In this document: piece by piece, positions 19,545-27,191 of the stretch
Layout: every line of letters begins with the position of its first letter
Position numbering within the stretch: position 1 is the stretch's first letter
DNA from: a virus
Direction: 5' to 3' (one strand)
DNA length: 34,143 bases
Virus record (IMG/VR): IMGVR_UViG_3300021959_000188
Coordinates: 1-34,143 of that record
Notes under the pieces: generated by a model
Told to the model about the DNA's origin: nothing
The model's database searches: none
What the model saw: only the letters and a program-made list of their open reading frames with translations
Program-made: the position numbers and the translations under genes

Positions 19545-21692
19545 TCACACTTCATCCCACTTAATCATCTCGCCCACGACCACACATTGCACGTCTCTGC
19601 CCTGCCGTTTGTCGTACATCTCAGCTTGCTTCAGCACGTTGGTTTTGATCCATTGTTTGACGATTGATTTGACCTTTGCCTTATCGCCGGGTTTGTCAAG
19701 GTCTAGCTTCAACTCATCTGCGACTGCTTGTCCGACATAGTGCTTGGCTTGCACGTTTGCTTTAAACGGTGTTTGGTTGGCTTCTGCTTCTGCCACAACT
19801 GCTTGCACGTTTCTGGCGTTTTGGGTTGTGACGCCATCAAACAGGTCCGGCAGCTTGAACTCTATTGCAACCCCGATATGCTCGCCGTTTGCGATTTCGA
19901 CTGAGAGCATACGTCTGTATATACGCTTGTCAGACGGCGGTGCGAGGTTTGCTTTTCCATCGTCTACTGCAAAGATGCCGAGCGCATCGTGTTCGTCTAC
20001 GCCGAGCGCCATTGCATCGTCGGGTGTTATTCTGTTGATTACTCTGGCGGCTCTGGCTGCTCCGATTAGGCTTCCTGCGCCACGCACACTGTCAATTGTG
20101 GCATCGTCACCGTTGCCTTTTCTGATGTGGTGGACGAGCTGGACTGAGCTGTTTGTATCACGGGCCAGCTTGCGCAGCATTGCCACGACTGCTTGGATGC
20201 TTCCGTTGTTATTCTCGTTGACCAAATGTGCCGAAATAAAGGGGTCTAACACAACTACGCCGATGTTGTTTTGTTTTACCTTGCGTGTGATATGCGCAAG
20301 CATGTTGTCATTTGTAATCAGTCCGTCCCTGCCTTCTGCCGCCAGCGTGAGCTGCATGGTGTCCTCACCGTCCATAAACAGGCGGCCTTTGATGTCGTCT
20401 GGCGTCAGTCCGTAATGCTGCATGGCTGCTATGGTGCGCATCTGCATTTCGGATATTGGGTCTTCAAGGTTGATGATCCAGACGTTTTCCTGCTGCTTGA
20501 CTGCCGTGCCGAGGAGCGGCTTGCCTGTCGCAATCGCTAGTGCTTCGACAATGATTGCACTGGTTTTCCCGATGCCACCCGCCGATGCTGTGACACTGAT
20601 ATACTTCTTGATGTAATCGTATCCGTACACCCACTCCCTGCGCGGCAGCGTGAGCGCATCAAATGTTTTATAGGGGGTAGGCCACGTTTCCTGCGTTTCG
20701 GCACTCAGCGCCTCGTTCTGTTGCTCTATGCGTTGCTGCACGGGATCAGGTGGCGGTGTCCAGCCTTTGTTTCTGGCTCCATCTATTGCGCGTTGGACCT
20801 CTGCTCTTGTGTCGTCTACCGTGTAACCTGCCAGCGTAAAGCTATCTGTTATGGCGTGGATCTCTTCGTCTGATAAACCTTTTGTAACGTATGAGCCGAC
20901 GAGCCGTACCATATTTATGTGCCAATCGTCACCGGCTAGCACGTTCTGCACTGCCAGTTGCCTGTCCATTGCTTGCTGCCCTAGATCTATGTTTATGCTG
21001 CTAGCTGGCTGCTCTTTCTTGGGGAATGCTCGCATGAGCCGTTCGAACGGCACGGGGTCACGATCCGTACTGAATTGCGTACGCATTGTGACAAGCTCTG
21101 GAGTGTAGCCTTTGGCTTGTTTCTTTTGGTTGGGCCATGAGACTGTGCCAGCCACGCGCATGATCCGGCTTGGGTTTACGACTGCGGCATCTGTTTGAAG
21201 ACTTGCGGCGATTGATTTCTGGACGTTGCGCCATGCGTTTAGATTGTAGCACGGCTCTTCTAGCTGCCAGTACGCATGGCCTCTGTTGAATGGTATGCTG
21301 CCTGTCTTGACTGACATTGTGAATTTTGGTCCGGCGAATGACAGGATGTTTTCCATTGCGCCTTCTGTGTCTGCGTCTGCAAAGCAGTAGAATGCTGCAA
21401 GGATGTCTTCGTCTGTCGCGCCTTTACCCGCTGGTATGATGCGGATTGGATCTATTGGGTTGATGCACATGTAGATATTTTGCTTGGCGTTATTCATTGC
21501 CTCGGCGTGATCTACGGCTTCTTTGATTTTGTTGACGGCAAACCGTGCAACTGAGACTGTTCCTGTCTGCCCGATTGCTCGAATTTCTATGAGTGGTTCA
21601 CCGCAGGTATTCCAATTCTCTGTGATCTGTGTTATGAACTGTTCGATAACGCTGGATCTGGGTGATATGCTCATTGTGTTTTCCATTTCCAT
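19545..21692 (-). CDS. Primase-helicase fusion (AEP/RepB-like primase plus RepA/DnaB-type ATPase)
   Basis: A 715-residue replication protein. Residues ~70-230 look like an archaeo-eukaryotic-type primase: the FADAD metal motif (D106, D108), GHAYW with H139, and D168...R176...R179 in the DAAVVNPSRIMRVAGT block. Residues ~350-560 form a RecA-fold helicase: Walker A AGGIGKT (371-377), NLED (408-411), Walker B VVVLDP (479-484), HHIRK (521-525) and VRGAG (536-540), as in RepA-like hexameric helicases. The C-terminal ~100 residues look like a winged-helix or accessory region. With no DNA polymerase in the genome, it probably primes and unwinds for host polymerase III. Confidence 0.88.
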   Translation of the reverse strand: MEMENTMSISPRSSVIEQFITQITENWNTCGEPLIEIRAIGQTGTVSVARFAVNKIKEAVDHAEAMNNAKQNIYMCINPIDPIRIIPAGKGATDEDILAAFYCFADADTEGAMENILSFAGPKFTMSVKTGSIPFNRGHAYWQLEEPCYNLNAWRNVQKSIAASLQTDAAVVNPSRIMRVAGTVSWPNQKKQAKGYTPELVTMRTQFSTDRDPVPFERLMRAFPKKEQPASSINIDLGQQAMDRQLAVQNVLAGDDWHINMVRLVGSYVTKGLSDEEIHAITDSFTLAGYTVDDTRAEVQRAIDGARNKGWTPPPDPVQQRIEQQNEALSAETQETWPTPYKTFDALTLPRREWVYGYDYIKKYISVTASAGGIGKTSAIIVEALAIATGKPLLGTAVKQQENVWIINLEDPISEMQMRTIAAMQHYGLTPDDIKGRLFMDGEDTMQLTLAAEGRDGLITNDNMLAHITRKVKQNNIGVVVLDPFISAHLVNENNNGSIQAVVAMLRKLARDTNSSVQLVHHIRKGNGDDATIDSVRGAGSLIGAARAARVINRITPDDAMALGVDEHDALGIFAVDDGKANLAPPSDKRIYRRMLSVEIANGEHIGVAIEFKLPDLFDGVTTQNARNVQAVVAEAEANQTPFKANVQAKHYVGQAVADELKLDLDKPGDKAKVKSIVKQWIKTNVLKQAEMYDKRQGRDVQCVVVGEMIKWDEV

Positions 21693-24931: not shown

Positions 24932-25120
24932 TTGACCAAAGAACAAACGCAATATCAAATAGGCTGCGAGCGCAAACTAATTGAGCGTTTGCAGCGCAGC
25001 CAGCAACTGATGCGGGAGTATGATTTGCATGTGCGCCCCAATGGTATTGGTGCTGACATTGCTGCGTTTGATACGGCGATTGAAAATGCAGAGGCAAGAA
25101 TAAAGGAGCTAATGGAATGA
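24932..25120 (+). CDS. Small coiled-coil protein, first gene of rightward operon
   Basis: A 62-residue, charged helical protein (KLIERLQRSQQLMREYDL ... AIENAEARIKELME) with a TTG start at 24932, chosen because AGAGGAG lies 8 nt before it. An ATG six bases upstream stops at once. Its stop overlaps the next ATG (ATGA). As an early, promoter-proximal small gene it may be a host-takeover factor, but there is no direct evidence. Confidence 0.7.
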   Translation: MTKEQTQYQIGCERKLIERLQRSQQLMREYDLHVRPNGIGADIAAFDTAIENAEARIKELME

Positions 25121-25383
25121 AAAGATTTTGCGCTGAATTTATTCAGACAGGCACAAATGATCGGATGACAGTAAATGCCGACACGCTCGAAGAATTAAAC
25201 ACTTTGCTGTACGGTCGCCCGTATCCTGCCAAGCCTAATTCTGTTAAGATCTATGAGCGTAAAGACGTAAAGCCTCGCGTTGATTTCAACACGAAGGTCG
25301 CGTTGGGCAGCGCGAAGAAACATCAGGAAAACATGCAGGTCACACTGGACCGCGCACCTTGGGAGAAGTCAGATGAAAATTGA
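25117..25383 (+). CDS. Small unassigned early protein
   Basis: An 88-residue basic protein with a compact N-terminal half (FCAEFIQTGTNDRMTVNADTLEELNTLL) and a charged, probably disordered C-terminal half. It is linked by overlaps to the genes on both sides. No family recognised. Confidence 0.7.
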   Translation: MKRFCAEFIQTGTNDRMTVNADTLEELNTLLYGRPYPAKPNSVKIYERKDVKPRVDFNTKVALGSAKKHQENMQVTLDRAPWEKSDEN

Positions 25384-25468
25384 TAAACAAGATTGGGCAA
25401 TCTTTGCTTTGGTGGTCGTTATGGCGGCTGTGTTTGTAACAGGTATCAGCGCGGGGTGGTGGTTATGA
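25373..25468 (+). CDS. 31-residue single-span membrane protein
   Basis: The short frame begins MKIDKQDWAIFALVVVMAAV and ends GWWL; residues 9-29 form one hydrophobic helix. It overlaps the preceding gene by 11 bp and the following one by ATGA, and AGAAGTC precedes the ATG. Continuity of the overlapping gene chain is the main evidence that it is real. Confidence 0.6.
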   Translation: MKIDKQDWAIFALVVVMAAVFVTGISAGWWL

Positions 25469-25704
25469 TTGAGTTTTTCACCGTTCTGATGATCGACTAC
25501 GAAATGGCGTCGTTCAATGCAGCGCCGCTTGCATCCATCGTCTACGCCACAGAAAGCCATTGCCAGCAAGTAATGGATCAAGGATTGGCTGACCCGATCT
25601 ATGATCACATCGTCAAGCTGTACGGCAATGACATTTATATGACCTGCGTGGAAACAGAGGTTGTTTCTTCTGCGATTAGACCAAGGGCAAGGCCAGAAAG
25701 TTAA
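25465..25704 (+). CDS. Small unassigned early protein
   Basis: A 79-residue protein starting at the ATG that overlaps the upstream stop (ATGA); longer versions starting further upstream would overlap the membrane peptide entirely. The sequence MIEFFTVLMIDYEMASFNAAP has a moderately hydrophobic start, and two Cys occur later. No family recognised. It ends 4 bp before the transglycosylase start. Confidence 0.6.
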   Translation: MIEFFTVLMIDYEMASFNAAPLASIVYATESHCQQVMDQGLADPIYDHIVKLYGNDIYMTCVETEVVSSAIRPRARPES

Positions 25705-25708
25705 AAAA

Positions 25709-26389
25709 ATGATCCACTATCACGGCGGCCCGATCACACCACGTTCTGAGCTTTTCAAAATGGGCGGCAAGCATATGTGCGTTTCGTTTGCTGACAAGCG
25801 TGATGATGATTGGTGCTTGAGAAATTGCCAGAGTGTGATGTGGGACAATGGCGCATTCAGCGCATTCACAAAAGGCAAGCCAACAGATTGGAATAAATAT
25901 TATGAATGGCTTGAAAGCCGTTTAAGCCCACCGCATTGGGCGGTTATCCCAGATGTCATCGATGGTGATGTCAATGACAATTTAGAGCTTATAAAGCAGT
26001 GGCCTCACAGAAAAGATTGTAGTGCTGTTGTTTGGCATATGGCAGAACCAGTAGATCATCTTTTGCGTTTGATTGATCTAGGCTTTGGCAAAGTGTGCTT
26101 TGGCTCATCTGGTGCTTACTGGCAAGTTGGATCGAACGCGTGGGAAAGACGCGCAGATGTTGCATTCAACGAGATATACAAACGTGGGCCGATACCTTGG
26201 GTGCATATGCTTAGAGGGCTTTCCATGGCTGGGTCTAAGTATCCTTTCGCCAGCGCTGACAGTGCTAATGTTGCGCGGCATCACCAAGAAATGAATACGT
26301 GTCCAGAAAGGTGGGCAAGGCAGATCGACATGGTTCAAAACCCTGTCACATGGAAAATGAAAGAAACACAACGGGAGTTGCTACTATGA
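25709..26389 (+). CDS. dpdA: TGT/DpdA-like transglycosylase, candidate 7-deazaguanine DNA-modification enzyme
   Basis: A 226-residue TIM-barrel protein resembling the short phage DpdA branch of the tRNA-guanine transglycosylase superfamily. It keeps WDNGAFSAF with D46 (TGT base-contacting Asp position), VIPDV (79-83), FGSSGAYW (131-138), HMLRG (166-170) and SADSANVAR with D184, the likely nucleophile position. The CxCxxC...H zinc site of bacterial TGT is absent, as expected for short DpdA types. DpdA enzymes exchange guanine in DNA for a 7-deazaguanine base. I use the ATG at 25709; a TTG at 25661 would add 16 residues inside the previous gene. Its stop overlaps the transporter start (ATGA). 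tRNA remains a possible substrate. Confidence 0.8.
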   Translation: MIHYHGGPITPRSELFKMGGKHMCVSFADKRDDDWCLRNCQSVMWDNGAFSAFTKGKPTDWNKYYEWLESRLSPPHWAVIPDVIDGDVNDNLELIKQWPHRKDCSAVVWHMAEPVDHLLRLIDLGFGKVCFGSSGAYWQVGSNAWERRADVAFNEIYKRGPIPWVHMLRGLSMAGSKYPFASADSANVARHHQEMNTCPERWARQIDMVQNPVTWKMKETQRELLL

Positions 26390-26916
26390 ATAAAGGTTAT
26401 ATAGCAGCCGCAGGTTATGCTCTTACCATTCCTGCCGCAAACTGGATGATTGGAAATGTAGGTACGTTTTGTGTACCTGATGGGCCTTGCCTTATCCCTC
26501 TTGGCTTTGGCCTCATGGCTCCAAGCGGAGTTTTAATGATTGGGCTTGCACTTGTATTACGGGACGCAGTGCATGAATGGTTAGGAGCGCGAGCCGCACT
26601 TTATGCCATCGGCGTCGGTGCTATCTTGAGTTACCTGCTTGCTGATCCTTTCATTGCCGTGGCTTCATTGATTGCGTTTGGAGTGTCTGAGCTTTCTGAC
26701 TTTGCAGTTTATAGCAAAATAAGACAGCGCAGCCGAGAGCTTGGAATATTGGTAAGTGGTATCGTTGGAAGCGTTATTGATAGCGCCCTTTTCCTCTACA
26801 TTGCATTCGGATCACTCGCGCACATTGAGGGACAGATCTTTGGCAAGATAGCCATGAGCGCCTTAGCAGCCGTTGCTTTGTATGCTTACAAAAGGAGAGG
26901 GCAAGACCATGACTGA
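26386..26916 (+). CDS. yhhQ: VUT/YhhQ-family queuosine-precursor transporter
   Basis: A 176-residue integral membrane protein of the VUT (YhhQ, DUF165) family. Landmarks are PSGVLMIGLALVLRDAVHEW (46-65), ADPFIAVASLIAFGVSELSD (86-105) and SGIVGSVIDSALFLYIAFGS (124-143), the strongest family signature. Hydrophobic segments alternate with these blocks, giving about five or six spans. E. coli YhhQ imports preQ0/preQ1. The start is fixed by an ATGA overlap with the dpdA-like gene and a GGGAG site, so the two are translationally coupled. The phage has no visible queC, queD, queE or folE, so imported or host-made base would have to feed the transglycosylase. Confidence 0.88.
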   Translation: MNKGYIAAAGYALTIPAANWMIGNVGTFCVPDGPCLIPLGFGLMAPSGVLMIGLALVLRDAVHEWLGARAALYAIGVGAILSYLLADPFIAVASLIAFGVSELSDFAVYSKIRQRSRELGILVSGIVGSVIDSALFLYIAFGSLAHIEGQIFGKIAMSALAAVALYAYKRRGQDHD

Positions 26917-27109
26917 GAAATGTTTGGACTGCGATAGGGATGCTTTGATAAAATCTGACTATGACACATATTGTGCCGAATGTTACATGCGCAGGGAGGT
27001 AGAAAATGCTAGAACTCACACCCCACGATCACGCACTTTTACGTCATCTCAAGCGGGAGGAAGAACGCTGTCTGGACGCTTACCTTCGCACAGGTACAAG
27101 ACACCCTAA
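26909..27109 (+). CDS. Small zinc-ribbon protein
   Basis: A 66-residue protein with CLDC (5-8) and CAEC (22-25), a four-cysteine zinc ribbon, followed by a basic Ser/Thr-rich tail. AAAGGAGAGG precedes the ATG, which overlaps the transporter stop by 8 bp. Its tail overlaps the next gene out of frame by 104 bp, which is unusual. Only the first ~30 residues look like a folded domain. Confidence 0.65.
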   Translation: MTEKCLDCDRDALIKSDYDTYCAECYMRREVENARTHTPRSRTFTSSQAGGRTLSGRLPSHRYKTP

Positions 27110-27191
27110 CGTCCAGCAAGACCTGTGGCGAGCGCGGCAAGAGTTGAAAGAATATGTGCGCAGCCTACGCTTGGAAGGCAAGCGAATTTAA
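27006..27191 (+). CDS. Small helical protein, last gene of rightward operon
   Basis: A 61-residue charged helical protein (HALLRHLKREEERCLDAYL ... ARQELKEYVRSLRLEGKRI) with a strong GGGAGGT site 5 nt before ATG. It starts inside the zinc-ribbon gene. No family recognised. Confidence 0.65.
   Translation: MLELTPHDHALLRHLKREEERCLDAYLRTGTRHPNVQQDLWRARQELKEYVRSLRLEGKRI

Follow-up and report, generated by a model that had tools for sequence, protein, structure and literature searches.

The window, as we call the whole 34,143-nucleotide stretch of viral DNA analyzed here, carries an overlapping pair of genes for the DpdA-like enzyme P0001 and the predicted transporter P0002 (Table 1). Together with small open reading frames (ORFs), the pair occupies a plus-strand island of about 2.3 kb in a gene layout that otherwise lies on the minus strand. 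The ATGA overlap between the two genes is present as claimed in the original prediction, and many relatives likewise have a −4 overlap or another short one. The PHROG matches of the window form a podovirus-type set, with structural proteins (connector, tail tube proteins, major head protein, internal virion protein, and terminase) accompanied by a primase/polymerase-helicase, a Holliday junction resolvase, and an amidase. The primase/polymerase-helicase-like gene (19545 to 21692, matching phrog_906) contradicts the earlier suggestion that this small genome lacks polymerases of its own; the accompanying suggestion, that base-synthesis genes are missing, stands provisionally, with no FolE, QueC, QueD, or QueE found in the window by phmmer at an E value of ≤1e-4. 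Subject to the completeness of the record, the window thus holds no preQ0 biosynthesis-type cluster as defined by FolE, QueD, QueE, and QueC; such absences are provisional because no terminal repeat was found in the viral record, the completeness of which is uncertain. Rfam and tRNA scans of the window gave no match, and a promoter scan gave no excess over shuffled sequences. A small ORF with a zinc-ribbon-like CxxC...CxxC pattern (26910 to 27109) starts inside the 3′ end of the transporter gene; it is absent from the equivalent place in the phage fragment L002 described below.

Table 1. Features of the enzyme-transporter locus in the window
Feature	Position	Strand	Details or basis
P0001, DpdA-like (TGT-superfamily) transglycosylase, "family A"	25709..26389	+	226 aa, ATG start
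P0001 key residue codons	D46 25844-25846; D82 25952-25954; H166 26204-26206; D184 26258-26260	+	
P0002, VUT/COG1738 transporter, predicted 7-deazaguanine base importer	26386..26916	+	176 aa
ATGA start/stop overlap of both genes (translational coupling)	26386..26389	+	Sequence
Mobile block, 98.4% to L002	25707..26861	+	blastn, exact boundaries
Plus-strand island with pair and small ORFs	24932..27191	+	ORF layout and PHROG annotation of neighbors

The first gene is, as had been predicted, a short TGT/DpdA-like gene with D46 in WDNGAF and D184 in SADSANVAR, and no CxCxxC...H zinc site is visible in its product. P0001 matches phrog_887, named queuine tRNA-ribosyltransferase (E value of 9e-42); Pfam and NCBIfam searches with P0001 and its relatives (family A) matched no family. 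Residues D46, D82, H166, and D184 are invariant in an alignment of 27 relatives, and their conservation among 153 homologs is 1.00, 1.00, 0.99, and 0.99, respectively. When the family A profile (192 sequences) was compared with the DpdA of Escherichia phage CAjan by hhalign, the two aligned over 171 columns (probability of 99.5%, E value of 9e-23), with D46 falling on LDSGAF, D184 on CDSSSW, and H166 on a conserved histidine, so that the profile comparison called for by the original prediction places both aspartates in register. Deletion of dpdA from CAjan abolishes dPreQ0 in its DNA (PMC6884629). The same comparison with the single E. coli TGT sequence aligned only 18 columns around the DSGGF motif (probability of 1.4), and P0001 falls outside Tgt as recognized by a zinc site plus similarity to Tgt.

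The AF2 model of P0001 has a pLDDT of 83.7, and the structural search suggested earlier gave a divided answer: in the Foldseek viral library, all named matches at an E value of ≤0.001 were phage queuine tRNA-ribosyltransferases (TM scores of 0.57 to 0.69), and the PDB returned nothing at that threshold. Transaldolases and TrpA ranked at the top of the PDB list, but their matches were not significant (TM scores of 0.4 to 0.5), and they were rejected as homologs. Judged by its sequence, P0001 is a homolog of DpdA, and it would be expected to act on DNA. The family A gene in the 1,719-base entry OR850331.1 (H47) resembles P0001 in the way that the copies of Salmonella phages do; the label of this entry, Staphylococcus phage, is possibly wrong. 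The prophage copy of family A in Ensifer aridi (L189) looks broken, its gene being divided between two ORFs.

The assignment of the second gene to the VUT family was borne out by Pfam Vut_1 (48.6 bits against a gathering score of 27.2, E value of 1.5e-12), and P0002 also matches phrog_4899 (E value of 2.6e-34). P0002 has hydrophobic segments, and its residues R59, D60, D105, D132, and K154 are at least 99% conserved in 131 sequences. COG1738 transporters serve queuosine (Q) salvage, and the members tested elsewhere move preQ0/preQ1 (PMC11130926). Against the queuosine precursor transporter model TIGR00697, P0002 scores 41.6 bits (1.2e-10), which is under the cutoff of 50.95; P0002 is a divergent VUT member, and its exact substrate is therefore not certified by this model.

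Bacterial relatives of P0002 provide a view of the substrate independent of the name of the transporter. Transporters sharing about 50% identity with P0002 occur in Devosia sp. ZB163 and Microvirga alba, where the gene overlaps queC and is the last of a DpdA-DpdB-QueC operon (PADLOC; DpdA, 8.5e-99; DpdB, 3.4e-119). These Dpd islands are chromosomal and encode a bacterial-type DpdA, DpdB, and QueC, unlike the pair in the window. In two further loci (L349 and L352), a P0002-like transporter follows QueE-QueD-QueC. A set of 28 bacterial genomes contained 19 P0002-like genes; family A is the neighbor of 12 and QueC of 6, and the remaining one, in a locus of only 2.6 kb, has neither neighbor. Because its relatives sit in dpd operons or beside QueC or family A, the transporter is linked with 7-deazaguanine bases and, in Devosia and Microvirga, with DNA modification as well. 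The Devosia and Microvirga chromosomal operons (L332 and L333, about 6.4 to 12.6 kb) also contain a second DpdB-like gene beside DpdA.

The association of enzyme and transporter was measured in IMG/VR, where the best 80 loci per search were taken and dereplicated, so that the sample consists of near relatives. In a family A search blind to the transporter, a VUT gene was adjacent in 50 of 58 dereplicated loci. A second family, B (phrog_15826), is remotely related to family A (profile match of 95.5%, E value of 1.6e-8), and its structural model is poor (pLDDT of 66); a transporter-blind search with this family found the transporter adjacent in 40 of 53 loci. Conversely, 79 of the 80 loci from a transporter-led search adjoin a DpdA-like gene (67 of family A, 12 of family B), and a contig end truncates the last one. 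In all 130 dereplicated DpdA-transporter pairs, the two genes share a strand, and either gene may come first. Cultured phages carry the pair with family A (Pam5, RHph_N3_2, RHph_X2_30, PEAT2, and Flyfo) or family B (the Mycobacterium phage StevieRay, the Arthrobacter phage Aoka, and the Rhodococcus phage ReqiPine5). In the latter three, the transporter adjoins or lies one gene away from the enzyme (StevieRay gp53-gp54, Aoka gp38/gp40, and ReqiPine5 gp04-gp03), with no synthesis genes in the stretch viewed, and the annotators of StevieRay and Aoka call the enzyme DpdA-like. In Sinorhizobium phage phiLM21 (L355, 3123 to 4474), the transporter abuts a third DpdA-like protein of 274 amino acids, which has DSGAF and SSDS motifs and is annotated as hypothetical.

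The two genes move together, and the transporter also changes its enzyme partner. The transfer is seen in L002, a T7-like phage fragment where the pair is flanked by an endonuclease-like gene and a primase/helicase (names read from the sequences). Positions 1722 to 2876 of L002 are 98.4% identical to the window over 1,155 bp, from 2 bases before the start codon of the enzyme to near the end of the transporter, and blastn found no other match between the two sequences; a block confined to the pair in an otherwise unrelated phage indicates that the two genes were exchanged together. The exchange of partners is seen in L020 and L258, which share transporters 94% identical and 541 bp of upstream sequence 97% identical, one with a family A enzyme and the other with family B. 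Likewise, the transporters of the window and L031 are 82% identical, whereas their enzymes are only 44% identical.

The transporter and que genes avoid each other, and que genes sometimes replace a missing transporter: que genes lie near DpdA in 1 of 90 loci with the transporter versus 6 of 21 without it (Fisher P = 1.5e-4). L009 and L010 have DpdA-QueE-QueD, L188 has QueE and QueD, and family B is accompanied by QueC, QueD, and QueE in L286 and L314, with FolE also present in L314. In the family A tree, the clade of the window has full SH-aLRT support. Of its 73 members, 67 carry the transporter and 3 carry que genes, whereas the other 3 lack both; the transporter/que label changes 18 times on the tree versus 48 times in shuffles. 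The Salmonella phage 7-11 and Pantoea phage MED16 fall on a deep family A branch lacking the transporter; PEAT2, which has the transporter, is a neighbor of 7-11 in the tree.

Other arrangements were also observed. In L280 to L282 (6001 to 7683), the transporter forms one overlapping run with QueC and a DpdA-like gene of family B. Families A and B share a locus with FolE and QueC, and no transporter, in L269 and L272; L269 also has QueE, and its family A match, whose branch in the tree is very long, may represent another type of DpdA. In the Caulobacter phage DMCA (L325, 5705 to 6726), a 98-amino-acid 6-carboxytetrahydropterin synthase (QueD) gene overlaps the family A gene, and QueD alone lies beside family A in L174, L195, L217, and L237.

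QueC is encoded by most of the bacterial hosts checked, which means that import is not needed in every case, and Tgt is present in 8 of 8 hosts checked. Among hosts with the pair, 6 of 17 lack QueC; among those in which family A stands alone, 1 of 53 does (P = 6e-4). The contrast is only suggestive, because draft metagenome assemblies make up most of the QueC-less hosts and the two groups are taxonomically different. Mycobacterium smegmatis, the host of StevieRay, is reported to lack all Q genes, and the DNA of Orion, a DpdA-only phage growing on it, is unmodified (PMC6884629). In hosts that make preQ0, import would add to the supply; in those that do not, it may be the sole source.

Taken together, the linkage, the exchange of partners, the transfer as a unit, and the connection to bacterial dpd operons are best explained by import combined with insertion into DNA, and we consider it likely that the pair is a salvage-type DNA modification cassette. 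In this model, the transporter would raise the level of a 7-deazaguanine base (preQ0, preQ1, or a near relative) in the infected cell, and the DpdA-like enzyme would swap guanines in DNA for the imported base by a TGT-type mechanism, with D184 forming the covalent link to the sugar and D46 acting as the acid/base. Import would thereby stand in for the FolE-QueD-QueE-QueC synthesis genes of other DpdA phages. Which base is used, that it enters DNA and not tRNA, which way it is transported, and how the phage benefits are inferred. Several points speak against the model, namely, the assayed relatives without a transporter, with their trace modification and cleavable MED16 DNA, the PDB search with no significant match, the failure to align with TGT beyond the DSGGF motif, the TIGR00697 score below the cutoff, and the QueC of most hosts checked. 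The DpdA-YhhQ salvage pairing put forward originally is thus upheld by comparative evidence in its central part, a DpdA-like enzyme joined with a transporter of the 7-deazaguanine type in a salvage route that replaces synthesis; the specific identification of preQ0/preQ1, the presence of the base in the DNA of this phage, and the protection from restriction are not.

The claim of restriction resistance finds no support in the assayed relatives, in which the modification is at trace level. In the family A phages 7-11 and MED16, dADG was measured at 50 and 354 per million nucleotides (PMC6884629, PMC8306585), from which we compute about 9 and 33 such bases in each genome, respectively. Most enzymes tested cut the DNA of MED16 (PMC8306585). 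Such trace levels mean either that too little base is available, a shortage that a transporter would relieve, or that the enzyme marks few sites. It is possible, if rather unlikely, that the enzyme modifies only a few specific DNA sites (for instance, in packaging, origin, or regulatory regions), with no bulk block to restriction and with the transporter merely ensuring supply. The small numbers of modified bases and the cleavable MED16 DNA are consistent with this reading; however, neither assayed phage has the transporter, and low supply explains the trace level equally well. For the salvage cassette, the benefit is most likely evasion of some DNA-targeting defense at selected sites rather than bulk restriction resistance.

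A second alternative, which we think unlikely, concerns the cargo: the transporter may import another 7-deazaguanine (7-carboxy- or 7-amido-7-deazaguanine or queuine), which the enzyme would then insert. The main form in 7-11 and MED16 is dADG, not dPreQ0, and the QueC gene between enzyme and transporter in L280 to L282 would be sensible if a QueC substrate were imported, whereas the COG1738 members tested elsewhere move preQ0/preQ1.

It is improbable that P0001 is instead a minimal tRNA-guanine transglycosylase that, in the course of infection, raises queuosine or a precursor base in host tRNA and so favors phage translation, leaving the DNA unmodified. The superfamily does include TGTs, the PHROG family bears a tRNA-ribosyltransferase name, the COG1738 role in Q salvage would fit, and the hosts checked carry Tgt. 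However, the profile matches phage DpdA and not TGT, the 226-residue protein has neither a zinc site nor a C-terminal tRNA-binding part, and relatives of the transporter sit with DpdA-DpdB; in addition, the hosts already have Tgt, and the host of StevieRay is the M. smegmatis reported to lack all Q genes. Finally, chance adjacency or hitchhiking of two genes that do not work together is hardly credible and was rejected, although 48 of 70 bacterial family A loci have neither the transporter nor a que gene and many lambdoid and enterobacterial prophages have a family A gene with no neighboring transporter, since all 130 pairs share a strand whichever gene comes first, the DpdA family is repeatedly exchanged beside near-identical transporters, and the pair is transferred as a unit.

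The salvage cassette can be compared with several known systems. The DpdA of CAjan is homologous to P0001 and has the same order of catalytic motifs, and a COG1738-type transporter is annotated in its cluster too (GenBank); however, CAjan makes preQ0 by FolE, QueD, QueE, and QueC and has a DpdA of 306 amino acids, whereas the window has only the transporter and the 226-amino-acid enzyme. The DpdA-only Salmonella phages 7-11 and SEN1 and Pantoea phage MED16 have the same family A and no synthesis genes (PMC6884629, PMC8306585), but 7-11 and MED16 have no transporter beside the enzyme. The 2019 study that described DpdA-only phages and possible uptake found YhhQ homologs uncorrelated with any phage group (PMC6884629), in contrast to the well-supported clade described above, in which 67 of 73 members have the transporter. 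A phage preQ0/preQ1 transporter and the salvage hypothesis were published for Pantoea phage Vid5 in 2018 (PMC6266253), and a phage-encoded Vut_1 transporter was proposed for preQ0 salvage in both Vid5 and Enterobacter phage EC151 (PMC6266253, PMC8310023); in these phages it belongs to a biosynthesis cluster, either partial or full, in which DpdA is longer, and not to a stand-alone pair. The original description of the design as little described therefore holds for the stand-alone pair and not for its parts, given Vid5, EC151, the annotation of CAjan, and the DpdA-only phages. New here are the stand-alone pair as a conserved, mobile module with synthesis-gene reciprocity, the interchange of DpdA families, and the link to bacterial operons.

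On balance, it seems somewhat probable that the pair is a widespread, mobile, and self-sufficient import-and-exchange module, in which an importer and a short DpdA from any of at least two remotely related families, with nothing else, occur in many unrelated phages. The DNA chemistry of these phages, some of which infect hosts unable to make the base, would then depend on environmental 7-deazaguanines. The analysis also suggests functions for phrog_15826 (family B) and phrog_4899 (the transporter), both of which are listed as unknown, and cultured, nonpathogenic test systems are available in StevieRay on M. smegmatis, Pam5 on Pseudanabaena, and RHph_N3_2 on Rhizobium. If the model is true, phage DNA modification would be a nutritional trait, dependent on bases released by other microbes.
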